From: Sedimentisphaerales bacterium
GTDB lineage: Bacteria; Planctomycetota; Phycisphaerae; Sedimentisphaerales; UBA12454
DNA: 45,243 nucleotides
NCBI GenBank assembly: GCA_016930635.1
Contig: JAFGGI010000003.1
Location: 1-45,243 of the forward strand
Direction of reading: 5' to 3'
In this document: piece after piece, positions 29,171 through 45,243 of the stretch
Layout: each line of letters starts with the position of its first letter
How positions within the stretch are numbered: position 1 is the stretch's first letter
Translations under genes and position numbers: made by a program
Notes under the pieces: generated by a model
Told to the model about the DNA's origin: nothing
Seen by the model: the letters and a program-made list of their open reading frames with translations, nothing else
Database searches by the model: none

Positions 29171-29262
29171 ATGTTTAGTTTAATGTAATAGGGCCTGAAC
29201 GCCTATAACACCAAATTTAATTAGTCCGTGCATGTAGACACGGGCGGAAAGTGAGGCTTGTT

Positions 29263-29820
29263 ATGAAGAGGAAGATGTTGGCTATCGTAGCTATCATGAT
29301 GATGGTTACAAGCGTTGCATCTGCAGACCTTAGTGGCGAAGCAGAAGCACACGTATTTGTTGATGTAGTCGCTAACGTATCCGTTGGTGTTCTCACATCA
29401 AACGTCGACCTGGGACAGATCCAGACAGGTTCATTCCCTGCCAATCTGGTCTTCAGAGTAGACGCTAATGTTGAGCAAGTAAAATTCACAGTGATAGCAA
29501 CCGACCTTTACAAAGGTGATGATCCTGCCAGTTTATTTACAATTCCTGTAGCAGGTGACGGTGCTGTCGTTCAACCAACAAACGCTAACCCAATTCAGGG
29601 CGGAACCAATCTGTTAGTATGGCTCGCAGGCGATGGAAGCCTCCAGCTGAATGGAATGTCTGCTACTCAGAGCGAAACAAAAGCTTATGAGAGTGGTCAG
29701 AATCAGCACTTCAGCCAGGATGTCGATGTAACAGTCGAGTACGATCAGATTGATCCTGAACTTCCCAGAGGTGAGTATAGCGGTTGGGTAAAACTGGTTT
29801 GCGAAATCGACCCAGTATAA
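29263..29820 (+). CDS. Secreted pilin-like subunit 1 of a chaperone-usher-like system
   Basis: 185 residues with a signal peptide (MKRKMLAIVAIMMMVTSVASA). The mature protein is all-beta in pattern, starting with a strand of alternating hydrophobics (AEAHVFVDVVANVSVGVL) as a donor strand would, and ending with PRGEYSGWVKLVCEIDPV, which resembles the C-terminal edge of spore-coat-U/DUF4402-type fimbrial subunits. It is a paralogue of the protein at 31710 (shared KFTVxATDLYxxxDPAS and xGxYxGxxKLVCExxP). ATG 29263 has GAGG seven bases upstream; GTG 29251 is less likely. The chaperone gene follows. Role as a surface-fibre subunit is inferred from context. Confidence 0.75.
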   Translation: MKRKMLAIVAIMMMVTSVASADLSGEAEAHVFVDVVANVSVGVLTSNVDLGQIQTGSFPANLVFRVDANVEQVKFTVIATDLYKGDDPASLFTIPVAGDGAVVQPTNANPIQGGTNLLVWLAGDGSLQLNGMSATQSETKAYESGQNQHFSQDVDVTVEYDQIDPELPRGEYSGWVKLVCEIDPV

Positions 29821-29878
29821 TTTCGTTTTAAGTTCAATGCTAACCAAAAGGTTGTTCAGGCCTTTACATTAAACGAAA
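29821..29878 (+). other. Long inverted repeat between pilin-like subunit and chaperone genes
   Basis: TTTCGTTTTAA at 29821-29831 pairs with TTAAACGAAA at 29869-29878; an inner stem AAAGG (29847-29851)/CCTTT (29861-29865) lies within. It begins directly after the subunit stop codon. There is no U-run, so it is more likely an mRNA-stabilising or attenuating structure favouring excess subunit over chaperone than a full terminator. Confidence 0.55.
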
Positions 29879-29904
29879 TAAAAGATAGTTAAGAGATATT
29901 TAAT

Positions 29905-30795
29905 ATGTTGCGAGATAAATATTTTAAGATTAAACGATCTTTTCCGGCCGTCTTTGTGATTTTCTGCCTTGTTAATATTCTTTATGCAGGCATAGGAATC
30001 AAACCTGCTTATGTCGAGCTGGAACTGGACAAAGGACAGGCTGCAGGGAAGTTTATAATCTCAAATCTCGGTGAAGAGGAAGAGCGTTTTCGTGTTAACG
30101 CCATCCATTTTACATACTCAATTGACGGCGGTTTAAGTCAAATGCCGACAGGACCGAATTCACTGGCTACATGGATACACTTCAACCCGAAAGAACTTGT
30201 GATGCCGCCAAACAGCCAAAGAGCCGTCCGTTTTGCCATTGTTCCCAGAGGAGAACTCAAACAGGGATCTGAATATTGGGCTGCAATGGAACTGGAGTCC
30301 CTGAGAACATCTGAAACCACTTCAACAGATGAAGAGTCCGGCAAATCTGTCAAACTAAGAGTAGTATCAACCATAATGGTCCCTATGTTCGGAACTGTCG
30401 GAGATGTTGTATATGAGGGAAATATAGAGGACGTAAATATTGTTACGCGTTCTGACGGTGTATTTATACACTCTATAGTTAATAATACCGGCGCCGGCAG
30501 AATAGGTGCCAAGGGAGAATATATAATTACAGACGCTTTGGGCCAGGTTGTCTACGAAGGAAAAATCGGAAAAGGTTATGTTCTCGGCGGGACAAAAAGA
30601 AGATTCCTCCACAAGATCGCAGATGAGCTGCCGGAGGGAAAATATAATGTAAAAGTTACATACAGTGCTCTGCACTTTAATGAGCCGCTTACCAGTGAAA
30701 TCGAGATCGACTGGAAGCCGCAGCAGACAGAAGTTGCATCAGATAATGCTTCCAGCAGCCTGACGGATAAATCCAGGCATTTAGCCAAAAAGTAA
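29905..30795 (+). CDS. PapD-like periplasmic fimbrial chaperone
   Basis: 296 residues with a signal peptide (about 1-28). Two Ig-like domains are visible: domain 1 (about 30-155) with GIGIKPAYVELELDKGQAAGKFIISNLGEEEERFRV and the edge strand VKLRVVSTIMVPMFGTVG, domain 2 (about 165-270) with GVFIHSIVNNTGAGRIGAKGEYI. This layout matches PapD-type chaperones that complete subunit folds by donor-strand complementation in the periplasm. The C-terminal 25 residues are Ser/Lys-rich and look disordered. It lies between two secreted subunit genes with a usher-like gene nearby. Sequence is far from the classical proteobacterial chaperones, nearer the alternate types. Confidence 0.75.
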   Translation: MLRDKYFKIKRSFPAVFVIFCLVNILYAGIGIKPAYVELELDKGQAAGKFIISNLGEEEERFRVNAIHFTYSIDGGLSQMPTGPNSLATWIHFNPKELVMPPNSQRAVRFAIVPRGELKQGSEYWAAMELESLRTSETTSTDEESGKSVKLRVVSTIMVPMFGTVGDVVYEGNIEDVNIVTRSDGVFIHSIVNNTGAGRIGAKGEYIITDALGQVVYEGKIGKGYVLGGTKRRFLHKIADELPEGKYNVKVTYSALHFNEPLTSEIEIDWKPQQTEVASDNASSSLTDKSRHLAKK

Positions 30796-30816
30796 TAAAA
30801 TCTGATAACATGCTTT

Positions 30817-30843
30817 TGAAGGCTGATTAATTAACCTTCATTT
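30817..30843 (+). terminator. Weak hairpin after the chaperone gene
   Basis: TGAAGG (30817-30822) and CCTTCA (30835-30840) form a 6-bp stem around ctgattaattaa, followed by ttt. Its position 20 bases past the chaperone stop suggests partial termination before the PEP-CTERM gene. Confidence 0.35.
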
Positions 30844-30867
30844 GCCGCTATGGAGAGAGGTGATAAT

Positions 30868-31548
30868 ATGAAGAAGCTGTGTATAATAACGCTCGTTATT
30901 TTTTTGGTCAACAGCAGTATATTTGCAAATCCAATAATTCACGTCGATGGACAAGGCTACGGCAAGAAAAAGACTTTTACTGACGGGACTATTGCCTTTG
31001 CCGGCGAACTAAAGCTGACCGCAATGAACATTCCATCTATTGCTGACGGTCAATTCATATCCTTTTGTATTGAGATTGATGAGGAGATTTCAACAGGCGC
31101 TTACTATGACGCAATCGTTAATACAGAAGCGATAGAAGGAGGAAAGGGCGGTCCCAGCCCGGACCCGCTGAATAATGAGACCGCATGGTTGTATCTTTAC
31201 TATCTGGATAATATTGCCCCGACAATGCTGCCTGCAAACTGGCTCGCGAATAATAAGATAGCTGAGGACTATGGAATGACAATATGGGCTTTGGAAAATG
31301 AAATCCATCCGGGCTATCTGAGTACTGAAGCCCAGGTGATATATAACGAAGCCCTGAATCATACCGACTGGGAAAACGATTCGGTAGAGGTTCTCAATCT
31401 TTACGCTATGGGAACTTATGACAGTAATGAGCCAATACTTCGTCAGGATGTCCTGGCAAGAAGAATCCCGGCACCGGGAGCAATCTTCCTGGCTTGTATA
31501 GGATTGGGTATGGTCAGACTCAAAAAAAAGAGATTCCTTGATATTTAA
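30868..31548 (+). CDS. Secreted PEP-CTERM-type surface protein
   Basis: 226 residues with signal peptide (MKKLCIITLVIFLVNSSIFA). The middle has a motif common in planctomycete exported proteins (SFCIEIDEEI, then NETAWLYLYYLDN). The C-terminus is a sorting tail: IPAPGA motif, a hydrophobic helix (IFLACIGLGMV) and a basic end (RLKKKR), a PEP-CTERM variant recognised by exosortase. ATG 30868 is chosen over 30850 because gaggtgat lies directly upstream. Its place within the chaperone-usher-like locus suggests a tip or base protein anchored at the surface; this is inference. It might also be an independent cargo protein. Confidence 0.8.
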   Translation: MKKLCIITLVIFLVNSSIFANPIIHVDGQGYGKKKTFTDGTIAFAGELKLTAMNIPSIADGQFISFCIEIDEEISTGAYYDAIVNTEAIEGGKGGPSPDPLNNETAWLYLYYLDNIAPTMLPANWLANNKIAEDYGMTIWALENEIHPGYLSTEAQVIYNEALNHTDWENDSVEVLNLYAMGTYDSNEPILRQDVLARRIPAPGAIFLACIGLGMVRLKKKRFLDI

Positions 31549-31644
31549 TTATATACAAAAAAAAGACCGGGATTTCCTGTTTTACAAGTTCTGCAGAATA
31601 TCTCTATGTAAAATGACTGCACTTTTCAACAATCAACCTTCCCT

Positions 31645-31672
31645 TTGACGATATATTTAATTATAGTATATC
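31645..31672 (+). promoter_or_regulatory. Possible promoter upstream of pilin-like subunit 2
   Basis: TTGACG (31645-31650), 16-base AT-rich spacer and TATATC (31667-31672), 38 bases upstream of the start codon. The close match at -35 and the AT-rich context support a separate promoter for the second subunit. Confidence 0.35.
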
Positions 31673-31709
31673 TCAACGGAATGCTGAAAAATAGCTAAAG
31701 GATTTGGCT

Positions 31710-32306
31710 ATGACAAAAGGATTGACAGTCTTAGCTATAGGTGTAATCGGTCTGGCCGCCTATACGCATGGAGATTTAAGAACAATTTCCCACCAGGCTC
31801 AAGTCCACTTAACTGCAAATGTTATCCCAAACATCTCAGTTCAGGTTATCAGTACTAACATAGCAAGTCCGGATGAAGGCAGAGTTACTCTGGAAATCAA
31901 TGGTCTGGGAGGCGGTATTGTTGAAGCAGAAGTTTTGTTCCATGTTATTGCTAATGTAGAACGAATAAAATTTACAGTGTTAGCAACAGACTTATACAGG
32001 GATGAAGATCCTGCCAGCTCGTGGAGGATACCGGTAAGAACATCACAAGGTCCTACAATCGAAGCTTCATATGCCCAGCCGACACAAGACAGCAGCAAAT
32101 CACTGGACTGGGCGCAAAATATAACTTATTCAAACGGGATGAACGCCTGGCAAAGTCACAGCCGGGAATATGCAAGTTCTCAGCCCAAAGGCACCTTTAA
32201 TCAGAACATATCGGTAAAAGTTGAGTATGAATCGACTGAGCCAACGATTCCGAGGGGAACTTACGGTGGATTCATAAAACTGGTTTGTGAAGTTGAACCA
32301 CTGTAA
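31710..32306 (+). CDS. Secreted pilin-like subunit 2 of the chaperone-usher-like system
   Basis: 198 residues with a short signal peptide (MTKGLTVLAIGVIGLAAYTHG). It is a paralogue of subunit 1 over the whole mature length: an N-terminal hydrophobic-alternating strand (AQVHLTANVIPNISVQV), the shared block ERIKFTVLATDLYRDEDPAS, and the end IPRGTYGGFIKLVCEVEPL. ATG 31710 has aaagga seven bases upstream; the TTG at 31704 would overlap that site. Its last 46 bases overlap, in the opposite direction, the end of the usher-like gene. Possibly the minor or adaptor subunit. Confidence 0.75.
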   Translation: MTKGLTVLAIGVIGLAAYTHGDLRTISHQAQVHLTANVIPNISVQVISTNIASPDEGRVTLEINGLGGGIVEAEVLFHVIANVERIKFTVLATDLYRDEDPASSWRIPVRTSQGPTIEASYAQPTQDSSKSLDWAQNITYSNGMNAWQSHSREYASSQPKGTFNQNISVKVEYESTEPTIPRGTYGGFIKLVCEVEPL

Positions 32307-35300
32307 TGTTCTTTATCATCTTCTCTGGGAGTCAAAATGCCTTTAAAGTCGCCCATCAGCAACTGCTGAAAATCTTCTTGAGGTATAACCTCAATTTTAC
32401 GTTTAGGTTCACCAAAATTACAATCCGGCGGTATTGTTTTCATATCAAGCTGTAAATTATATTCGCCGGGTCTTATATCACCGAGATAATAGCTGCCGTC
32501 GCCCGCAGTGATAGAATCGGCTACAAATTTATCTGTATTCGGGTCCGTCAGCAACACCCTGATACCGGGAATTGCCTTATAAACATCATTTGGGTCAACC
32601 GATATAACCTTTCCTGAAATTGAGATTAACGGTGTCAGACCAAGATTGACCTTGGCAAGACCCCAGCGTGAAAACTTTACAAGCTGCATGCCATGTGTAG
32701 GAGAATAAATCGCCGGCACCGTATCTATGTCCAGATATATCCGGGCTTCTTTTATATTTCTCGGCGCAGACAGGATATAATATCCATCTTTATCCGTTGT
32801 TGCTGAGTACGCCCTGCTGAGATTGACTTTTATACCCGGCACACCAGGCTCATTCGGATCAAGAATTGTGTTGGCATTGTAATCCATAAAGACCTTGCCG
32901 TGTACACCTCCAATATCACCTCGAACTCGTCTATCATTTGATGCAATCAGTCTGCCTTCATATTGTGAGAACAGATCATTCATAGTCAGATAGAGCATTG
33001 TTTCCCATTTGCCGCTTCTGAATTCGGTCTGAAGACCAAACCGGCTGCGGGCTGTATCATTCAGCAGATAGTCAACACGGTTCCTGAATATATATTTGTC
33101 CTCATGAACAGACGCTTCAAGGTCCCGTGAAAACTCTGTATGAATCCGCAGGCCGCGTTTAAACGGGATACTGACATCATGTGATAATGTTATCATTTCA
33201 TTTTCAGGCATCTCAGGCTGAAGCAGATAATGGAACGAAATACTATTCGAATTCGGCAAGGATTTCCTTACTGACAAAGACAGCTCCGGTTCTCTGGCCC
33301 GCGGAGTATCCGGCAGTTTAAGACCGGTAAACAGTGCACTGTTACCAGCCAGGTCCAGCGTATCTCCCCAGGAACATTGTCCATAGATATCAAATCCAGG
33401 CCAGGGTGATGTCCTTACCTTAATCTCCTTGAGAGTTTGTGTATTCGGGTCCCAGCTTGATTTCAACTGGTCCACAGTAAATACCACAGTTGTACGCGGC
33501 AGAATAGTAGTTCTTATACTCATACTTCTATATTTTCCTGAAGTTGTCTCATCTAAACTGCCGTCTAAGTTATTCTTTGATTTTCCTATGGTTCCTTCCA
33601 GCGTCCATTTCTTATGCGGGCTCCATCTGCCGCTAATTGCCATTGCCTGTCTGTCTGAAAGACTCAAGCTGCCGCCGTCGAAATAGTCTTTGCCCAAATT
33701 TAGATAATCAACATTAAAGCTCAGGTTAGGATAAGGCAGATATTCACCCCTTAACCTGTATGCCGTATCGTTATATGAACTGTCACCAACACCCTGACTT
33801 TTGGCTACATCGCCGGAGAAAAGCAGTCTGTCGGTGGCAAGCCAGGAAAACGAGGTGCCAAAATGCTGGCTGGAATCAGGGTATGAACGATAACCTGAAA
33901 GAGTAGATGCCCTGGAATAATGTCTGAAGAAATCTCTCTGCAGACCAACCATCGCTCCTAAGGTCAGCCTGTCGGTAACGCCGTGCAGAAACCTGCCGCC
34001 GATAAACTTGCCTATCATCTCACCAAGTTCAGGGTTATTGCTCTCGTATTGATAAAGACTGGTATCTCTTCTCGAGCCAAGTGCACCCAAATAGGCGGAT
34101 TTTCCTGCAGGAAGCAGTGACGGGCTTCCAAAAATAGCCTTTTCGATCTGTGTCTCTGTCCCGTCAAGCTCTGTAATTTTGATAGTTATCTCGTTTAGAA
34201 TACCGTTCGGCAGTCTGACATCATCAAACCGGTATGTACCTGTTCCGAGAGGTGTTTTCTGATCGGAGAAAACCTCCGCAGTATCCACAACATCGTCATT
34301 AAGCAATAATTCCACTGTTGCACCTACCGGAGCCACTCCCTCGAATACATAAGGCATATTGAAATACTTATTCAATCCGAAGTCGGATTTGTCACCCTCG
34401 AGTTCTTCTTCAGAAAAACCTATAAGGCCGTTAAACCTGAAACCTGCCAGTCGCGAATTCGGAAAAACTAATTCACCCAGTCCAAAACTGGAATCACCAA
34501 CAGCAAATTCCGCAGAGGATGAAATCTGTTTTACCCACTCAAAATAACTTAATGTAGCTACAGCCTGTTTTTTCTCCGCCCAGCGAAGACCTTCCGGGGT
34601 ATCATCCCATACGGCAGATCTCTCTGACATCTGCATTTTATACCGTCCGCCAAGCAGCTGGCCCCATAAAGTCTGCATAGGCGAAGATAAAGTCAGCGTA
34701 TGTGCCGGGTCATCTTTCTGATCAGGTCTCTGCCATCTGTAAGTCAGACCTACCTTGGATTCGAAGAAATGAATCAACGAATCACTGATCTGTGCCATCG
34801 GATGAGCCTCAGGTATATCAGTAGGAATATAAAACGTATCGATCGCAAATAATGAAGTACTTTCTTTACGTTTCCAGATGCTTAGTTTGCGGTCTAACTG
34901 AATATAATACTCATAAAGCTCATTATCCCATTTAATGTCCATATTTAAAATTTCTGACATTACTTCGGGAAGAAGATATAAATCTCGTTTCATCGTAACA
35001 ATAGAGGAGGCTTCCAGGAATAACAGGTCCCTACGCTCGGGGCCGATTTCGATATCCCTGGCCTGGAGGTCAATAACCACCCGTTGAGCACCTTCAGGAT
35101 GGAAGGTTATGAGATTATCTTCCTCTGCAAATTGTATCTGAAAGGCCCGCAGTATTCTGAATAAAGGCATAAGCCTTTGGTCCCTGCCTGTAACAATAGT
35201 GTCGAGGTCTTCAACTACTAATCGCTCGTGCACCCTTCTTCCCTTGACTCTTAATCCGACAATTTCACTCTGCCGTTCACTGCCGAAAACACTGATTTCC

Positions 35301-35716
35301 TCTTGCAGTTCCGGAACAGGTATACGGTCTATGTTGTTCATATCCTCAGCAGTTCCGAGTGATGTACTGATATCAAGTTTTCTGCGCCTGGTTTTTTTTA
35401 CTCCTCTTAAATCCAACAGGCCGAAATTAGCATTAACAGGCCGTGCCGGGTATCGCAAATCCGGTATCGATGAATTTCTGTAAATTGAATGAGGCGCAAA
35501 CAGAGACTTTTCATCGTAATACCTCCACGATTCCAGTCCCTGATGAACTTTCATTTTACATCTGAAAGGCAAATGCAAAAGCGATGGCAGTCTTTGGCTT
35601 TCACTAACAGCAGCAGAACTCGGGCAGTTGCGCATAGATGTTGCGCGCAATAAAAGAGTTGTAAAGATTGCACCAAGCAACAACAGCTTGACTAAATTGT
35701 TACGACTTACCCCCAA
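32261..35716 (-). CDS. Usher-like outer-membrane protein with C-terminal Ig/SdrD-type domains
   Basis: 1151 residues, TTG start at 35716 (ggggga upstream), signal peptide about 8-27. Residues about 200-280 carry a copper-amine-oxidase-N-like motif (DLYLLPEVMSEILNMDIKW). The middle shows usher plug features: FEGVAPVGATVELLLNDDVVD...GTGTYRFDDVRLPNGILNEITIKI, followed by about 400 residues of alternating strands with aromatic edges like a 24-strand barrel (about 520-925). The C-terminus has two carboxypeptidase-regulatory/SdrD-like folds (from about 937, GKVFMDYNANTILDPNEPGVPG; second from about 1034, ISGKVISVDPND). The final 15 residues are read through the opposite gene. It is the likely assembly pore for the subunits encoded next door. 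Confidence 0.72.
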   Translation of the reverse strand: MGVSRNNLVKLLLLGAIFTTLLLRATSMRNCPSSAAVSESQRLPSLLHLPFRCKMKVHQGLESWRYYDEKSLFAPHSIYRNSSIPDLRYPARPVNANFGLLDLRGVKKTRRRKLDISTSLGTAEDMNNIDRIPVPELQEEISVFGSERQSEIVGLRVKGRRVHERLVVEDLDTIVTGRDQRLMPLFRILRAFQIQFAEEDNLITFHPEGAQRVVIDLQARDIEIGPERRDLLFLEASSIVTMKRDLYLLPEVMSEILNMDIKWDNELYEYYIQLDRKLSIWKRKESTSLFAIDTFYIPTDIPEAHPMAQISDSLIHFFESKVGLTYRWQRPDQKDDPAHTLTLSSPMQTLWGQLLGGRYKMQMSERSAVWDDTPEGLRWAEKKQAVATLSYFEWVKQISSSAEFAVGDSSFGLGELVFPNSRLAGFRFNGLIGFSEEELEGDKSDFGLNKYFNMPYVFEGVAPVGATVELLLNDDVVDTAEVFSDQKTPLGTGTYRFDDVRLPNGILNEITIKITELDGTETQIEKAIFGSPSLLPAGKSAYLGALGSRRDTSLYQYESNNPELGEMIGKFIGGRFLHGVTDRLTLGAMVGLQRDFFRHYSRASTLSGYRSYPDSSQHFGTSFSWLATDRLLFSGDVAKSQGVGDSSYNDTAYRLRGEYLPYPNLSFNVDYLNLGKDYFDGGSLSLSDRQAMAISGRWSPHKKWTLEGTIGKSKNNLDGSLDETTSGKYRSMSIRTTILPRTTVVFTVDQLKSSWDPNTQTLKEIKVRTSPWPGFDIYGQCSWGDTLDLAGNSALFTGLKLPDTPRAREPELSLSVRKSLPNSNSISFHYLLQPEMPENEMITLSHDVSIPFKRGLRIHTEFSRDLEASVHEDKYIFRNRVDYLLNDTARSRFGLQTEFRSGKWETMLYLTMNDLFSQYEGRLIASNDRRVRGDIGGVHGKVFMDYNANTILDPNEPGVPGIKVNLSRAYSATTDKDGYYILSAPRNIKEARIYLDIDTVPAIYSPTHGMQLVKFSRWGLAKVNLGLTPLISISGKVISVDPNDVYKAIPGIRVLLTDPNTDKFVADSITAGDGSYYLGDIRPGEYNLQLDMKTIPPDCNFGEPKRKIEVIPQEDFQQLLMGDFKGILTPREDDKEHYSGSTSQTSFMNPP

Positions 35717-37653: not shown

Positions 37654-38319
37654 TTATTTATACTCCTCTGCCCTGTGCCGGACGATTTGGCCTTCAATCA
37701 TATAAATCACATCCTCTGCAATGTTAGTGGTATGGTCGGCTATCCGCTCCAGATGCCGAGAGGCGGATAATATATGGATAAGAGGTGCTATTTGCTCCGG
37801 ATTTTTCACAATAGCGTCCTGGACCTTTAAATACATCTGGCGATTCATCTCATCAACGATGTCATCACTTGTGCAAACTTCGTGAGCAAGCTTGGCATCG
37901 TGATTGATCAAAGAATCAAGACTCTTTTTTAACATTAACTGAGCGTTACGAGCCATATCAAGAAGATCGGTCGAGATATTAAATTTAGATTGATTTGCAA
38001 GAAAAATTGCTCTTTCGGCAACATTGACGGCTAAATCACCAATACGCTCAAGATCGTTATTTATCTTAAGGACAGCTACAATAAAACGAAGGTCAACAGC
38101 TACCGGCTGATGCAGTGCAAGAATTTTCAGGCAGTCTTCTTCAATCTCAACTTCCATGTTATCAATATCAATATCGTTGTCTATTATTTTCTGGGCCAGT
38201 TTGACATCCTGTGTTTCAATAGACATTGTTGCATCTCTTACTGAACATTCTATTTTTGCACCCAGTGCCAGTAATTTCTTTTTTAGATTTTCTATTTCTC
38301 TTTGTAAATGCTTTGCCAT
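37654..38319 (-). CDS. phoU: Phosphate signalling and transport regulator PhoU
   Basis: 221-residue all-helical protein with two PhoU repeats (residues about 15-105 and 115-205). Both contain the metal-binding helix pattern with acidic residues (DIDNMEVEIEEDCLKILALHQPVAVDLRFIVAVLKINNDLERIGD and DDIVDEMNRQMY...SRHLERIADHTTNIAEDV). PhoU links Pst transport to the PhoR kinase and limits phosphate uptake. It is the last gene of the pst operon here, 18 bases after the small unknown gene. Confidence 0.95.
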   Translation of the reverse strand: MAKHLQREIENLKKKLLALGAKIECSVRDATMSIETQDVKLAQKIIDNDIDIDNMEVEIEEDCLKILALHQPVAVDLRFIVAVLKINNDLERIGDLAVNVAERAIFLANQSKFNISTDLLDMARNAQLMLKKSLDSLINHDAKLAHEVCTSDDIVDEMNRQMYLKVQDAIVKNPEQIAPLIHILSASRHLERIADHTTNIAEDVIYMIEGQIVRHRAEEYK

Positions 38320-38337: not shown

Positions 38338-38688
38338 TTAATATCTATTGTCATAGGAAGACGACAGAACACAATCAATTTTCCCATCACTTAGAGTTAT
38401 TTTCCCATCTTTGTCAGAGGCAGGCTCGGCTTTGGAATAATCAAAAGAAGATGCAAGCTCGTTAATTATCTCTATGCGATTCCATGGCAGGATTCTCACA
38501 CCCTTTTTGCCGACCCTTATATCCTTAATGCTGCTGATGGCCTTGCCGAAGTGATATGTTCGGCAATCCAGGCGGACATAAGATTGGGTTACACTAAGAA
38601 CCTGTCCAATAAATAAGTGGTTATGTGCTTCGGGGTAATTCTTTACCGTACGAATCTTCCATATTTTTTTGTCTTTCTGCTCGCTCAT
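38338..38688 (-). CDS. Conserved-looking hypothetical protein within the pst operon
   Basis: 116 residues, no signal peptide or membrane helix. It opens with a charged stretch (MSEQKDKKIWKIRTVKNYPEAHNHLFIG) and continues with short beta strands (QVLSVTQSYVRLDCRTYHFGK, IRVGKKGVRILPWNRIEII), like a small SH3 or Sm-type barrel. ATG 38688 follows the pstB stop by one base and has GGAAGG upstream; an in-frame TTG at 38697 is less likely. The tight spacing between pstB and phoU argues for a role in phosphate transport or signalling. Family not recognised. Confidence 0.7.
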   Translation of the reverse strand: MSEQKDKKIWKIRTVKNYPEAHNHLFIGQVLSVTQSYVRLDCRTYHFGKAISSIKDIRVGKKGVRILPWNRIEIINELASSFDYSKAEPASDKDGKITLSDGKIDCVLSSSYDNRY

Positions 38689-38689
38689 T

Positions 38690-39553
38690 TTATCCAAACC
38701 TTCCTGTTACATAATCTTCCGTTTGTTTTTTGCCCGGGTTGCGGAATATTTTTACTGTCGAATCATATTCTATCAACTCGCCCAGACAGAAAAAAGCGGT
38801 TCTTTCGCTGACCCTTGCAGCCTGCTGCATATTATGAGTTACAATAACGATTGTATAGTCATTTTGCAGTTTGTCTATCAGATCTTCTATCTTGCCGGTG
38901 GCGATTGGGTCCAAGGCTGAACATGGCTCATCCATCAGGATAATGTTTGGCTTGGTAGCTAACGCACGGGCTATACAGAGACGCTGCTGCTGACCGCCTG
39001 AAAGAGACAAAGCTGATTTTTTCAATTCATCTTTTACCTCATCCCATAGAGCAGCGGCCTTGAGACTATCTTCCACGATTTGCTGCAGTTTGGAGCGGCT
39101 CTTTATTCCCTGCAGTCTTGGCCCATAAGCAACATTGTCAAATATGCTCTTTGGAAACGGATTTGGCTTTTGGAAGACCATACCGACCTGCTGGCGAAGA
39201 TTTACAAGATTAGTGTTTTTATCATATACATTGTGGCCATTGACAAGCAGCTTGCCCTCTATATGAGTATTGGAAATAAGATCGTTAATTCTGTTAATGC
39301 TTCGCAGGAATGTACTCTTGCCGCATCCGCTTGGACCGATTATTGCGGTTACGCTGCAGGGCAGAATATCCATAGTAATATCTTTGACACCGACTTTGGA
39401 GCCGTAATAGAAGCTGAAATTCTCAGATTTTATCACAGCACAGCTGCAGTCCAGTTCTTCATCTTTATTTTCGTGAGCCGCTTTTTGTCCCAGACTTACA
39501 GCAGATTTAATTTGACCAATATTTATGTCGTTTTCTAAAGCAGATGCCGGCAT
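38690..39553 (-). CDS. pstB: Phosphate ABC transporter ATP-binding protein
   Basis: ATPase of the high-affinity phosphate transporter. Shown by Walker [10 protein letters not shown], the Q-loop [22 protein letters not shown] typical of PstB, signature LSGGQQQR, and Walker [14 protein letters not shown]. The usual N-terminus is extended by about 40 Ser/Glu-rich residues. I chose ATG 39553 because GGAAAG lies six bases upstream; an ATG at 39574 would add seven residues. Upstream is pstA (43 bases), downstream the small unknown by one base. Confidence 0.94.
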
Positions 39554-39596
39554 GTTTTCTTTCCTTTTTTCCATAGCAGTTAATCTTAATACCAGG

Positions 39597-41222
39597 TTAA
39601 TTTCCCCTTAGCCTTCTGAATACTTTCGCTCGTAAAATAATTGCAACAGCATTAAGACAAAGTATAAGCAAAACAAGCGTTACAACCATACCGTACTGTT
39701 TATGCGGCACCATCATTGCAAGCCTGTCTCCCACAGCAATATCATAACTTCCATAAGATAAAGTTCTTGTTGGATCAAATAATGATTTCGGTAGCGGCCC
39801 AAGTGCAACCGCTCCGGTAAATAGAATTGGAGCCGTCTCGCCTGCGACTCTGCTAAGACTAAGTATTATCCCTGTCAGGATCCCCGGCAGAGCGGCAGGC
39901 AAAGTTACCTTCATAAAAGTCCTGAATCTGCTTGCTCCAAGTCCTAAAGAAGCTTCTTTATAAGTCTGCGGAACCGACCGGATCGCTTCTTCACTGGCCC
40001 TGATCATTACCGGTAAGGTTAATACCGCCAGCGTCAGAGAAGCTGCTAAAATACACGGCTTAGAAGCACCACCAAATAACGGAATTAAAAACAAAACAAA
40101 AAATGCCAAACCAAATAGTCCAAAAACTATACTTGGTACGCCGGCAAGTGTATTTATGCCCATGCGAATTATCCTGACAGCCATATTATCTGAAGCACAT
40201 TCGACAAGATAGGCAGCGGAGATTATTCCCAGAGGGATCACAAAAATCATAGCTAAGAGAGTTAGTAATAACGTGCCTAAAATCTCAGGCCCGACACCGC
40301 CGAAATAATGCCCGGGTGTACTGTCATCAATGAAATACCGCCAGTAAAATGTGGGCATTGGTTTCATCATCCTGTCAAGATTGCTTTGGACATATCCAAA
40401 AAGCGGTTCTAATTTAGTGCCTTCGAATTGCTCGGCCCGCAAGGTGCGAACTTTAATCATTGGCTGGTCAGCTTCCTTTTGCACCCACTTTTCAGACCAG
40501 AGTAACTGATCCAATAGTTTTTGGGCCAAATCCCAGCGAGTTGCTCCATATCGGTCCATACTCAAAGCAGGAACGGGGTCATCAGGCTTGGGGCCTAATA
40601 GATGAAGAATAATATCTTCGACTTTTTGAAGCGCCCCGGCATATTCCTGACGTTTATCCAGGTCAATATTTTCGACGGATTTAAGAAAATCTTCGCCAAG
40701 AGTAAAAAATCCAGCCGCAGCAGTATCAACGAATTCTCCGTTCGTGCGGTATTGCAGAATATAATCAATATTTTCTTGTATTATTTGTTTATCATTGCTT
40801 TGAAAAGTTGCCTGGAGTTTATCTCTTATTTCTCTTGCAAGTGAACGGATTTGCTGATATTCCGCGCCAGATGTCCCTTTATATTTCAGTTCTTTGCCAA
40901 ACTGACGGTAAATCTGTTTTGACTCATCTATAAGTTCATCAGTATCTATGCCATGCTTGAATTCATCTATGATTAGGTATGCAGCATCACGAAATTGATG
41001 AACTTCGGCTATTTCGCTTTGCAAATCTTCATAATTACCCCTGTGATACAGGGCAAACTGCATTTTACGAAATTCAATTGTGTCTTTAAATATAACGGCC
41101 TTCGCACCTCGCCAGGTTATGGGACCCAGAACAATCAGCAATACAACTGTAAGCAGTACAACACTTGCCCCTGTCAGAACGGTGAATGCTTTATCAGTTA
41201 TTTGGCGGGTATTTAGATGCAT
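39597..41222 (-). CDS. pstA: Phosphate ABC transporter permease PstA with large periplasmic insertion
   Basis: The C-terminal half (about 305-541) is a normal PstA permease: [31 protein letters not shown], the EAA loop [26 protein letters not shown], and [10 protein letters not shown]. Total length is 541 instead of the usual 280-300. The extra about 240 residues (50-290) sit between membrane helix 1 (14-34) and the helix starting near 312, so they face the periplasm; they are helical, charged and have no recognisable fold. They might contact PstS or a sensor. The gene lies three bases after pstC. Confidence 0.92.
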
Positions 41223-41225
41223 AGT

Positions 41226-42206
41226 TTAGGATTTCCCCGCTTTCTTCTTTGCCGAGGCAAGAAAATATTCGCCTACTATATTAAGCAAAAATGTCATAAC
41301 CAAAAGTACAACACCTATCGCAAAAAGAGACCAGTAGTGAGGCGAATCTTTAGGTGTCTCACCCATATCTCCTGCTATGGTTGCCGTCATAGTACGAACA
41401 GATTGAGACAGATCCCACCAGGGAGAAGGAATCTGATTAGCATTACCTGATGCCATCCATACAACCATTGTTTCACCTATGGCACGCATCATTCCTAAAA
41501 CGATCGCTGCGATGATTCCGCTGTGGGCCGCGGGTATTATTACTCGGAAAATAGTCTCGAACCGGGTCGCACCTAAACCATAGGATGCTTCCCGGAGTTC
41601 TCTGCCGACAGCGGAGATAGAGTCCTCGGCGACGCTGATAATTGTAGGAAGTGCCATAATAGAAAGAACGATTGAGGCGTTTAGTGCATTTGTGCCGGTA
41701 GTAAAACCGAACTTATTCTGCAGCCAGGGAGCCAGTACCAATACCGCAAAGAAACCATAGGCAACGGATGGGATAGCTGCCAGGATTTCAATGATTGGTT
41801 TGACAAAGTCCCTTACTTTCAGCGAAACAATATCGCTTAAAAATATCGCAGCCAGAATTCCGACAGGTACAGCAAATATAAGTGCCGCTATAGTCACATA
41901 TAAGGAGCCGACTATCAACGACAATGCTCCAAATTTTGGTACAGTAGCTTCTGGATACCACGATTTTGTTGTTAAAAATTCGCTCAGACTGAATTTCATA
42001 AAGAAAGGCAGTCCTTCGCGTACAACAAAGAAGAAAATGAGCAGTACTAAAAAAACGGAACTGCAGGTTACCGCAAAAAGCAAAAAACGCCCCAGGTGGT
42101 GAAATAAAAATCCTTTCAAATCCTGCAAAGGCGTAAGAACCAGCAACTGATTCCTATCAACCGCTGGTCTGGTTCGCTGGATTTGGGTAATATTATTCAC
42201 AGTCAT
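41226..42206 (-). CDS. pstC: Phosphate ABC transporter permease PstC
   Basis: 326-residue inner-membrane permease that forms the transport channel with PstA. Six membrane helices follow an N-terminal cytoplasmic stretch of about 38 residues. PstC hallmarks are FFVVREGLPFFMKFSLSEFLTTKSWYPE, the EAA loop SAVGRELREASYGLGATRFETIFRVIIPAA, and the end AIGETMVVWMASGNANQIP. Starts four bases after pstS and is followed three bases later by pstA. Confidence 0.95.
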   Translation of the reverse strand: MTVNNITQIQRTRPAVDRNQLLVLTPLQDLKGFLFHHLGRFLLFAVTCSSVFLVLLIFFFVVREGLPFFMKFSLSEFLTTKSWYPEATVPKFGALSLIVGSLYVTIAALIFAVPVGILAAIFLSDIVSLKVRDFVKPIIEILAAIPSVAYGFFAVLVLAPWLQNKFGFTTGTNALNASIVLSIMALPTIISVAEDSISAVGRELREASYGLGATRFETIFRVIIPAAHSGIIAAIVLGMMRAIGETMVVWMASGNANQIPSPWWDLSQSVRTMTATIAGDMGETPKDSPHYWSLFAIGVVLLVMTFLLNIVGEYFLASAKKKAGKS

Positions 42207-42210
42207 ATTT

Positions 42211-43044
42211 CTAATAATTCGTCACCGGTATGAACCCTTTTGCTTCAATAATTTCCTGGCCGGTTTCAGACAAATAAAATGTACAGAATTTATATATCAT
42301 GCTGCCAAGCTTTGGGTAACCATTTGTGAACATAAATAAAGGTCTTGCAACTGGATACTGACCTGTTGCGATTGTCTGTCTCGAGGGCATAACGCCGTCA
42401 ACTTTTAAAGCCTTGACATTGGCATCAAGGAAGCCGATACCGACATATCCGATAGCACCAACAGTAGTTTTTACTCTGGCATGGGCCTGAGGATTGGAAT
42501 TTACATATTCGACCCCGGCAGCCATCTCTTCTTTTTTCATTACAAGGCCATGAAATGTTTCATAAGTTCCAGAAGAGGTGTCCCTGCTGATAGCAACGAT
42601 TTCAAGGTCCGGTCCTCCAACCTGTTTCCAGTTTGTTATTTTGCCCTGGTAAATGTCGCGTATCTGCTGGGTCGTCAGCTGAGCAACAGGATTTGAAGGA
42701 TGAACAACGATGCAAACACCATCCATTGCTACTACGTGAGCTACAGGAAATATGCCGTTTTCCACAGCCTTTTTGTACTCTTTTTCCTTCATAAATCGGC
42801 TCATAATAGCAATATCACATCGCCCATCCACCAAAGCCGCTGCTCCGTCACCACTTCCGGTCTTCTTGACTGTTATATCAAGGTTTGAATATTTACTATT
42901 AAACGCCTCGGCGAAAGCATCCGCTATTGGACCAACGGTAGTTGATCCCTCAATTTGCAAAGTCTGCTTTTGGCTAGCAATTAGCTCAGAGGCCAAGACC
43001 AGACTCAGCATAACCAGTCCGCATACTATAATTTCTTTTCTCAT
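42211..43044 (-). CDS. pstS: Phosphate-binding periplasmic protein
   Basis: 277 residues with signal peptide (MRKEIIVCGLVMLSLVLASELIA). Phosphate-binding motifs of the PstS family are present: EGSTTVGPIADAFAEAF, KKTGSGDGAAALVDGRCDIAIMSR, and ISRDTSSGTYETF. First gene of the pstS-pstC-pstA-pstB-unknown-phoU operon. The promoter carries three exact GTTAGA words (plus a weak fourth) 11 bp apart, with a -10-like element at 43072-43077, so phosphate-starvation control is likely. Ribosome-binding site aaggag lies just upstream of ATG 43044. Confidence 0.95.
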   Translation of the reverse strand: MRKEIIVCGLVMLSLVLASELIASQKQTLQIEGSTTVGPIADAFAEAFNSKYSNLDITVKKTGSGDGAAALVDGRCDIAIMSRFMKEKEYKKAVENGIFPVAHVVAMDGVCIVVHPSNPVAQLTTQQIRDIYQGKITNWKQVGGPDLEIVAISRDTSSGTYETFHGLVMKKEEMAAGVEYVNSNPQAHARVKTTVGAIGYVGIGFLDANVKALKVDGVMPSRQTIATGQYPVARPLFMFTNGYPKLGSMIYKFCTFYLSETGQEIIEAKGFIPVTNY

Positions 43045-43071
43045 TTCATAATCTCCTTTTCATTCACTTTA

Positions 43072-43126
43072 ATTTTACGATTCAAATGTTAGAGTTCTGT
43101 TAGAACCAGGTTAGAGTTTTGTAAAA
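43072..43126 (-). promoter_or_regulatory. Pho-box-like promoter of pstS
   Basis: On the + strand GTTAGA occurs at 43088, 43099 and 43110, with a degenerate GTAAAA at 43121: exact 11-bp spacing. On the coding (minus) strand this reads as repeated TCTAAC. A TAAAAT -10 element (43072-43077) lies 10 bases downstream of the last repeat, the distance at which PhoB/PhoP boxes replace the -35. Confidence 0.8.
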
Positions 43127-43132
43127 TAATCA

Positions 43133-44386
43133 TTAAAACTTGAATATAATATCCGCCTGGAGCAGTCTGAAGTCTTCTTTTGTGCTGCTGACATTTTGTT
43201 CGTTCATGAAATAATTAAGGCCGAATTGTACATTTTCGTCCAATTGATACTTAAAACCTATTACATGGCCTTTGCCATCAGTACCGCCGCCAATGAAGTC
43301 AGAATCACAAATACCTCCTAAAACAGCATCCTTTTCGACATCTCTGTAATTGTAAGAAACTTCCCATGAACCGGGGTCCTTGGCCTTATTGTATTTTGTT
43401 CCAATAAGCCAGGCTGTATCGCCGGAGGTGTTCGCTGCTATGTTGTTTACATAGGTGCCGAAAACAGAAGCTGGTATATCGCCCAGCTTGAAGCCATATT
43501 CTGCAAAACCTTCGATAATATCATAATCACTGGTATACATACCACCGGAAGTAGTATTTCCATTAGCACTTATGCCGGACAATGCTTGACCGTTTATATT
43601 GCCGAAATCATAGTAGCTTAGACCGGCAAGAATATGACTGTCGTCTGAGAGCTTGTGTTTGACCAAACCCTGAATGCCAAAAAGACTGGTATCCGCATCG
43701 GTGCTTCTTTCACGCATCCAGAAGGCTCCGCCTGCCAGTTGTGCAGTTGTGGAATCACTCATTTTCCACTTATACTTTGCAGCACCACCTTCAGGGCTCA
43801 GGTCGCCATCAAAAATAACCTGATTGCCACCGACCGTGTAAAACGGATTGCCCATTTTACCCAGCAGAATATTCAGGCCGGGCTTCCATTTAGGATGATA
43901 ATCAGCATATGCCCAGTCGAGCCAGAGTTCCTTGCTGCTGAAGGAGTCATCGCTTGAATCACCTAATGTGTGATTGGTGGAAGTCGGAGAATCGCTGCTG
44001 CCGGTAGCAATTCTAAAGATAGCATCCCACTCATCGTTGACCTTAGCCTGCATTTTCAGCCTTGCACGTATTCTGTTCCTGTTTCTCTTTGTTGCTGCGG
44101 TATCGTCGGAAATTGATTCATGTCTGTATCTGAAATCACCACCCCATTGAATTCTTTCAACCCATTTCATACTGTCGGGCAGGGAATCTACCTGCTTTTC
44201 CTCGACCGCCTTGGCAATCTTTTTCTCCATCTGTGCATCCTGCTGATTCTGTTGTGTCTCGATTTTCTCAATCCTCTGCTGTAACATCTTAATTTGTTCT
44301 TTTAATTCTGCCAGTTCGTCGGCTTTCGCATTTGTTCCCAAAGTCAGAACAAACAGGCATACCACTGTGTAAATTATTTTTCTCAT
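43133..44386 (-). CDS. Phosphate-regulated outer-membrane porin
   Basis: 417 residues: signal peptide (1-22, ending NAKA), a coiled coil with heptads (about 25-60; LAELKEQIKMLQQRIEKIETQ) that may trimerise or bind the cell wall, then a beta barrel (about 80-417) with alternating strands (WGGDFRYRHESI, RIRARLKMQAKVNDEWDAIFRIA, GLSYYDFGNI, FGLNYFMNEQ) and a C-terminal Phe (ADIIFKF) as BAM recognition signal. It fits the Porin_5-type putative porins. A Pho-box-like promoter upstream and the pst operon downstream suggest a phosphate or polyphosphate uptake channel, comparable in role to PhoE/OprP but unrelated in sequence. Confidence 0.85.
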   Translation of the reverse strand: MRKIIYTVVCLFVLTLGTNAKADELAELKEQIKMLQQRIEKIETQQNQQDAQMEKKIAKAVEEKQVDSLPDSMKWVERIQWGGDFRYRHESISDDTAATKRNRNRIRARLKMQAKVNDEWDAIFRIATGSSDSPTSTNHTLGDSSDDSFSSKELWLDWAYADYHPKWKPGLNILLGKMGNPFYTVGGNQVIFDGDLSPEGGAAKYKWKMSDSTTAQLAGGAFWMRERSTDADTSLFGIQGLVKHKLSDDSHILAGLSYYDFGNINGQALSGISANGNTTSGGMYTSDYDIIEGFAEYGFKLGDIPASVFGTYVNNIAANTSGDTAWLIGTKYNKAKDPGSWEVSYNYRDVEKDAVLGGICDSDFIGGGTDGKGHVIGFKYQLDENVQFGLNYFMNEQNVSSTKEDFRLLQADIIFKF

Positions 44387-44407
44387 TTTATACCTCCAAA
44401 AAATAAA

Positions 44408-44440
44408 CCTTCAATCTGGTCCCTCAGACTGCCCTGAAGG
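44408..44440 (-). other. Hairpin in the porin mRNA leader
   Basis: CCTTCA (44408-44413 on +) pairs with TGAAGG (44435-44440), enclosing TCTGG..CAGA, a two-layer stem in the 5' leader about 20 bases before the ribosome-binding site ggaggt. It may stabilise the transcript or bind a regulator. Confidence 0.4.
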
Positions 44441-44453
44441 AACTTTAATTAAA

Positions 44454-44497
44454 TATATAAATAGGGATTGTTAGACAGATATAAGAGGAGTGTTAGA
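44454..44497 (-). promoter_or_regulatory. Pho-box-like promoter of the porin gene
   Basis: GTTAGA at 44470 and 44492 (22 = 2 x 11) with a degenerate ATAAGA at 44481 between them. A TATATA/TATATT -10-like element lies 10-12 bases beyond, in the direction of the porin gene. Same orientation and geometry as the pstS box. Confidence 0.7.
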
Positions 44498-44500
44498 GTT

Positions 44501-44710
44501 TTATTGAGGTGAAAAAATATTTATTTCCTTGGTATCAATATCAGTGAGATTTCGACAACGGATTCCTAATGTTGTTTTTATAGCAGATATGTCCTCCGGG
44601 TCGTTGGATTTAAATGTTAATAGTAGTATAGCCCGCAGGAATCTGACAACTCGCACAATCAAGTAAATTATCCCAACTGCACACAAGATATTAAAACTTA
44701 ATTCATACAT
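44501..44710 (-). CDS. Small single-pass membrane protein, probably phosphate-regulated
   Basis: 69 residues from ATG 44710 (aaggga upstream; a TTG at 44731 would add seven). One membrane helix (about residues 5-24, FNILCAVGIIYLIVRVVRFL), then a positively charged short tail with no known motif. The Pho-box-like repeat at 44772-44810 stands about 60 bases upstream and the porin's Pho box starts directly after the stop, so it is enclosed by phosphate-control elements. Function not known. Confidence 0.6.
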   Translation of the reverse strand: MYELSFNILCAVGIIYLIVRVVRFLRAILLLTFKSNDPEDISAIKTTLGIRCRNLTDIDTKEINIFSPQ

Positions 44711-44755
44711 TTCTGCGTTTCCCTTCAACAAATATTAATGTTTCTTTACACAGAT

Positions 44756-44810
44756 AATGTACGATAAAGAAGTTAGAGTAATATTTAGGGATTGTTAGAG
44801 TTTTGTTAGG
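44756..44810 (-). promoter_or_regulatory. Pho-box-like promoter upstream of the small membrane protein
   Basis: GTTAGA at 44772 and 44794, GTTAGG at 44805, and degenerate ATTTAG at 44783: four words at exact 11-bp steps, same orientation as the other two boxes. A TACATT -10-like hexamer (44756-44761) lies 10 bases downstream. Confidence 0.72.
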
Positions 44811-44845
44811 CCGAATTTTTGAACAGCCAAAGAAAGAATTTAGTC

Positions 44846-45243
44846 TTACTTGAATATGAGAAAATAAAGACCAACCAAAGCGAGGAAGATGGTAATAAAC
44901 AGACGAAATGACCTCTGCGGAATATAATCAACAATTTTCTTGGCTATCCTGGCACCGAGAAATGAAACAGGTATAAAAATAAGCATACCGTATAACAACT
45001 TCGATTCAAGCCTTGTGCCGCCTTTTATATAGGTAATAATACGAGCCGAATCAATTAGTAATGCGATCGCACCGGCGGTAGCAATATACATGGCTTTAGG
45101 CAGGTCAAAAGCCGTAAGAAAAGTTGACCGAACAGCTCCTCCGACTCCGAAAATACCCGCAAAGAAACCTGATAACGCTCCGCCGGTTACCATGTTCCTG
45201 TTGTTTTTTGCTAAGCGGAAATTGGGCTTGATAGAAAGGAAGA
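44846..45243 (-). CDS. TSUP-family (TauE/SafE-like) membrane permease, partial
   Basis: The frame is open to the right edge of the window, so only about the last 132 residues are seen. They form the second half of a TSUP permease: the glycine-rich repeat GGALSGFFAGIFGVGGAVRS, three further membrane helices, and the family ending LFITIFLALVGLYFLIF. Members export or import sulfite, sulfoacetate or organic sulfur/carbon anions; substrate is not evident. An internal ATG at 45193 is unlikely to be the start, since coding sequence similar in character continues upstream (NFRLAKNNRN). Confidence 0.8.
   Translation of the reverse strand, partial: FLSIKPNFRLAKNNRNMVTGGALSGFFAGIFGVGGAVRSTFLTAFDLPKAMYIATAGAIALLIDSARIITYIKGGTRLESKLLYGMLIFIPVSFLGARIAKKIVDYIPQRSFRLFITIFLALVGLYFLIFK

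Follow-up and report, generated by a model that had tools for sequence, protein, structure and literature searches.

Putative Pho boxes of YTAACA-type words at the pst and porin genes of a Sedimentisphaerales genome

The pst-porin locus and its phased words

The DNA studied here (the window) is the entire contig C12, 45,243 bp long, of a Sedimentisphaerales genome of 2.45 Mb in 64 contigs that is 96% complete; the nearest named relatives of its PstS belong to Phycisphaerae and Sedimentisphaerales MAGs of the Planctomycetota. On the minus strand, its right end carries in order a cut TauE/SafE gene, an ORF of 76 aa, a porin gene, pstS, pstC, pstA, pstB, an ORF of 119 aa and phoU. Three promoter spans within this locus, 43072-43126, 44454-44497 and 44756-44810 when the -10-like elements are included, contain tandem words that we interpret as Pho boxes:

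44772..44810, minus strand: putative Pho box 3 (site 3), CCTAAC-N5-TCTAAC-N5-CTAAAT-N5-TCTAAC
44756..44761, minus strand: -10-like element of box 3, TACATT
44501..44731, minus strand: ORF of 76 aa with a TTG start and a hydrophobic stretch, the sole gene candidate downstream of box 3
44470..44497, minus strand: putative Pho box of the porin gene (site 2), TCTAAC-N5-TCTTAT-N5-TCTAAC
44454..44459, minus strand: -10-like element of the porin promoter, TATATA
43133..44386, minus strand: outer-membrane porin (PF16930, 8e-48), weakly like phosphate-selective porin O/P (PF07396, 4e-6)
43088..43126, minus strand: putative Pho box of pstS (site 1), TTTTAC-N5-TCTAAC-N5-TCTAAC-N5-TCTAAC
43072..43077, minus strand: -10-like element of the pstS promoter, TAAAAT, with the last word 10 bp upstream
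42211..43044, minus strand: pstS, phosphate-binding protein (NCBIfam TIGR02136, 276.6 bits against a cut-off of 206.6; Pfam PF12849)
41226..42206, minus strand: pstC, permease (PF00528 and gene order)
39597..41222, minus strand: pstA, permease (PF00528 and gene order)
38690..39574, minus strand: pstB, ATPase (PF00005)
37654..38319, minus strand: phoU (PF01895, in two stretches)

An earlier note on this DNA had described three sites with words in 11-bp phase and a single orientation, and all of them are present in the sequence. It had given the word as GTTAGA; the repeats are real, but this is a reading of the non-coding strand, and with the genes on the minus strand the functional word would be TCTAAC(A). 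Read in the direction of the genes, the repeating unit becomes YTAACA-N5, here CTAACA, and TCTAAC is mostly followed by A. CTAAC is the form of each of the three strong words before pstS; sites 2 and 3 are weak in their middle words. The -10-like element, which had been placed 10-12 bp away, does occur at each site, with a spacer from the last word of exactly 10 bp in all three. The locus hence displays both the 11-bp tandem direct repeats and the distance of about 10 bp to the -10 by which Pho boxes are recognized, together with a placement upstream of phosphate-uptake genes that is conserved at orthologous promoters. The placement of every site at pst and porin genes holds for sites 1 and 2; site 3 instead precedes the unnamed 76-aa ORF. 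This ORF has no Pfam match and no relative in the 25 loci examined. Lying between two putative Pho boxes, it could encode a phosphate-controlled small membrane protein or be a mere leader.

Two further features of the contig deserve mention. An unnamed 119-aa product of the pst operon, without a Pfam match (38338-38697, minus strand), is encoded between pstB and phoU and is 77-78% identical to its counterparts in locus L113 and in the related genome G004. The region 29251-35716 encodes a cluster of proteins that look secreted, along with one resembling a chaperone and an outer-membrane-like protein of 1151 aa; judged from ORFs read by eye, it has the look of a planctomycete surface system of the chaperone-usher type. 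An Rfam search of 43000-45243 returned 0 matches.

In the window, the word pair TCTAAC-N5-TCTAAC with up to two mismatches has 8 matches against 3.2 expected, a number reached in 2 of 100 shuffles, and six of these eight belong to the three sites. Across the whole genome, the pattern of three words plus the -10 element has its sole zero-mismatch match at the pstS promoter; three matches differ from it at one position, among them site 3, and eight at two positions, among them site 2. Looser patterns behave differently. The scan that the earlier note had proposed for listing a regulon yields, for the triple word with up to three mismatches, 3 matches against 3 in the reversed control, and the word pair with up to one mismatch yields 9 against 12. 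A genome-wide regulon drawn from the loose pattern was accordingly rejected. As the loose patterns lack genome-wide enrichment, the signal is confined to the pst/porin locus, and either the regulon is tiny or its remaining sites are too weak to be detected. Elements with 0-2 mismatches away from pst, at nine loci (six of relatives and three of this genome), led to no recognizable phosphate gene, and those of this genome are all internal to long open frames.

Boxes and spacing in relatives and beyond

A PstS match is found in 11 of the 13 family genomes, including the genome studied here, and the upstream DNA was read for 20 PstS matches of relatives. Phased YTAAC/YTAAT words stand directly before pstS in G001, G002 (two copies), G004, G006, G007 (two loci), G011 and G012, and in G010 the box lies about 200 bp upstream. 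The other PstS copies among these 20, mostly more distant ones, have no phased words upstream. TTAACA and CTAACA coexist in orthologous pstS boxes of the family. From the 20 matches, nine boxes were picked by their likeness to TCTAAC for training a position weight matrix (PWM), leaving out the near copy L025 and matches without a likely box; the resulting family profile is TCTAATnTTnTnTTAACAnAATnCTAACAATTA. Against it, the pstS site of the window scores 29.2 (43083-43115), with 100 window shuffles giving a mean maximum of 11.1 and a highest value of 18.7, a partly circular score, as resemblance to the window's own word had guided the choice of training boxes. Box 3 scores 13.6 (44789-44821), and the porin box 8.1, which is weak alone, with 3.3 such scores expected per window. 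A profile model of the nine boxes has matches at E <=1 in 12 of the 13 genomes; site 1, at no better than E 0.06, and site 3, at 0.11, are its only matches in the present genome.

The results at phoB and porin promoters and at the -10 are free of this circularity. Untrained sites before phoB match the PWM in L055, L057, L058, L059 and L064 (18.5-23.6), the last preceding an operon that contains phoB, and more weakly in L054 and L056 (11.0, 11.4). The porin promoters of relatives score 32.6 in L063, 17.1 in L056 and 16.4 in L060, with a weaker match in L054, and all of these sites before phoB and porin point in the gene direction. Further porin promoters score 15.7 in L114, 17.9 in L116 and 22.3 in L120. 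The L114 locus, whose PstS is an 82% relative, has the order phoB-phoR-box-porin-box-pstSCAB-phoU.

A wider set comprised 80 named loci, 77 of them evaluable and three with too little upstream DNA; neighborhoods were inspected for 44 of the 80 in one pass and for the first 25 in another. With a YTAACA box called where the triple score was equalled by at most 2 of 200 shuffles and lay above that of CTGTCA, 26 of the 77 loci carry one. Of 18 loci with Planctomycetota in their titles, 17 were evaluable and 14 have the box. None was called before pstS in L120, L127 and L135; L120 has box-like sites before the porin gene and pstC instead. YTAACA boxes also precede pstS in records labelled Verrucomicrobia, Omnitrophota and Deltaproteobacteria, so the epithet "lineage-specific" of the earlier note was too narrow. 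Before the pstS genes of close relatives, triples of the E. coli-type word CTGTCA score at best at chance level.

The distance to the -10 played no part in site selection. Among 38 boxes (three of the window, nine of the family and 26 of the wider set), 24 have TANNNT at offset +10, and any other offset has it in four at most; the family contributes 7 of 9, with other offsets at two or fewer, and the wider set 15 of 26, with other offsets at one or none. The PhoB/PhoP-box geometry proposed earlier, 11-bp direct repeats at a fixed spacing to the -10, thus stands, with position and spacing conserved in relatives.

Two of the loci titled Deltaproteobacteria, L158 and L161, encode a planctomycete-type PhoB (63% and 55% identical to that of G004) along with YTAACA boxes, which suggests either a joint transfer of regulator and operator or a binning error.

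The regulator and its residue 201

Seven family genomes have phoB and phoR within or close to a pst cluster, and the pst-linked PhoBs form one clade (support 100/99) that includes the PhoB of G001 from another contig. A PhoB of this clade was not found in the 96% complete assembly, nor was a near PhoR, the best match being 31% identical. The contig ends less than 900 bp from the porin gene, so phoB and phoR may be just beyond, and the genome's own phoB probably falls in a gap or past the point where the contig stops. The assembly does have one OmpR-type regulator, which falls outside the pst-linked clade:

L065, 10682-11413 and 8713-10695 (contig C57 of the same genome, G000): the sole regulator of OmpR type detected in the genome, placed on a long tree branch, and its kinase

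In the E. coli PhoB-DNA structure (Blanco 2002, as cited in the part of PMC3973317 used here), Arg201 forms a hydrogen bond with a guanine. When aligned to E. coli PhoB chains from the PDB, the L114 protein has Gly opposite Arg201, a residue number obtained by counting backward from the end of the sequence, and the PhoB clade of the relatives as a whole has Gly, Ser or Ala at this position. A regulator was found in 34 of the 80 loci, of which 17 are without a clear call or have another residue at 201 (11 Arg, one Gly and five Met/His/Asn). A small residue goes with YTAACA in 10 of 10 called loci of this set, and among seven called loci with Arg, six have CTGTCA and one, L159, has YTAACA; the His row L182 and the Met row L128 were called YTAACA as well, and the other three of the five had no call, nor had the 11 Arg rows and the Gly row. 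In the eight family genomes used in addition, the word is always YTAACA and the residue Ser or Gly. On the regulator tree, two changes of box type suffice, which makes this nearly one event that cannot prove a residue code, and a Fisher value of 6e-4 for residue 201 against box type was dropped as evidence for the same reason. In an exploratory test on related rows, the first letter is C in 19 of 24 words at Gly/Ala loci against 13 of 27 at Ser loci (p 0.004). It is tempting, if rather doubtful, to suppose that the residue at the Arg201 position sets the word, a small one specifying YTAACA and Arg CTGTCA, with Gly/Ala favoring C and Ser allowing T. If true, the missing PhoB of this genome should have Gly or Ala. 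Cyanobacterial SphR reportedly has the same contact residues as the E. coli protein and nonetheless binds CTTAACCT (PMC1906773, in the part consulted), and hence one residue may not suffice.

Relation to known Pho boxes and interpretation

The earlier note regarded the word as different from the known consensus sequences, a view that finds no support on the gene strand, where CTAACA stands beside TTAACA in the family. The PhoP box word of Bacillus is TTAACA; CTAACA is one base away from that of Bacillus subtilis, and the boxes of the relatives contain TTAACA itself. B. subtilis PhoP is a regulator of a Gram-positive with a different activation layout. The E. coli PhoB box (CTGTCAT, in repeats of 7+4 bp) is similar in its 11-bp direct repeats 10 bp upstream of the -10 and in its association with pst genes and an OmpR-family regulator (PMC4415409 and PMC1906773, in the sections covered); it differs in having CTGTCA where the present boxes have YTAACA, usually in three words, and in the Arg201 of its PhoB in place of the relatives' Gly/Ser/Ala. 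The cyanobacterial SphR box (CTTAACCT, 8+3 bp, three copies) shares the TTAAC/TTAAT words, the 11-bp period, the arrangement as three tandem copies and the pst genes (Table 1 and section 6 of PMC1906773); the first letter of YTAAC is C or T here and mostly T there, and TAAC is usually followed by A here rather than C. The parts of a review that we consulted (PMC4415409) define a Pho box as two 11-bp units whose word varies by species with the regulator contacts. As published boxes vary in word and the cyanobacterial ones have TTAAC at 11 bp, the boxes of the window belong to a known kind. No description of a planctomycete Pho box turned up in a literature search that covered its sources in part.

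Taken together, the evidence makes it very likely that all three sites represent Pho boxes of the ordinary activator type, which in this Phycisphaerae genome were detected only at the locus of pstSCAB-phoU and the porin gene. Other readings can be weighed against the same observations. One is that the repeats have no function and are AT-rich phased words of chance or leftover origin. This might be read from the loose patterns, which are no commoner than in the reversed controls, and from the poor score of site 2, but the fixed -10 spacing and a position kept at orthologous promoters in many genomes make this very remote. An operator word that is truly lineage-specific, read by a regulator of new specificity confined to the family, would agree with the uniform CTAAC of the strong pstS-box words and with the bias toward C at Gly/Ala loci; the alternation of CTAACA and TTAACA in orthologous boxes, the YTAACA boxes of other phyla and the published cyanobacterial TTAAC boxes (PMC1906773, as far as consulted) render it improbable.

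It is likewise quite improbable that the boxes are bound by the OmpR-type regulator of C57 with its neighboring kinase, rather than by a PhoB. That protein is the only PF00486 match in the assembly, and among NCBIfam models it scores best, though below the cut-off, with PhoB TIGR02154. Against this, it sits on its long branch outside the well-supported pst-linked clade, has Lys at the 201 position and a helix that differs, and its own locus, L065, has no box scoring above 10; moreover, the relatives pair the YTAACA box with the other PhoB and not with the C57 type. As a candidate PhoB it was therefore rejected on tree and helix.

Under the Pho-box interpretation, which draws on sequence comparison, low phosphate would lead PhoR to phosphorylate a PhoB-type response regulator of the OmpR family. 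The phosphorylated protein would bind the tandem 11-bp half-sites head-to-tail, replacing a -35 element, and from its fixed position 10 bp upstream of the -10 would recruit the RNA polymerase, thereby switching on pstSCAB-phoU, its porin and the small ORF. CTAACA would then be one variant of YTAACA, the word read by the PhoB clade with Gly/Ser/Ala at the Arg201 position. The three YTAACA-type words, the 10-bp spacer and TANNNT would constitute a scannable Pho-box model for Phycisphaerae, allowing the prediction of phosphate-responsive genes in uncultured planctomycetes, and the boxes may offer a natural case for how PhoB changed its operator word.
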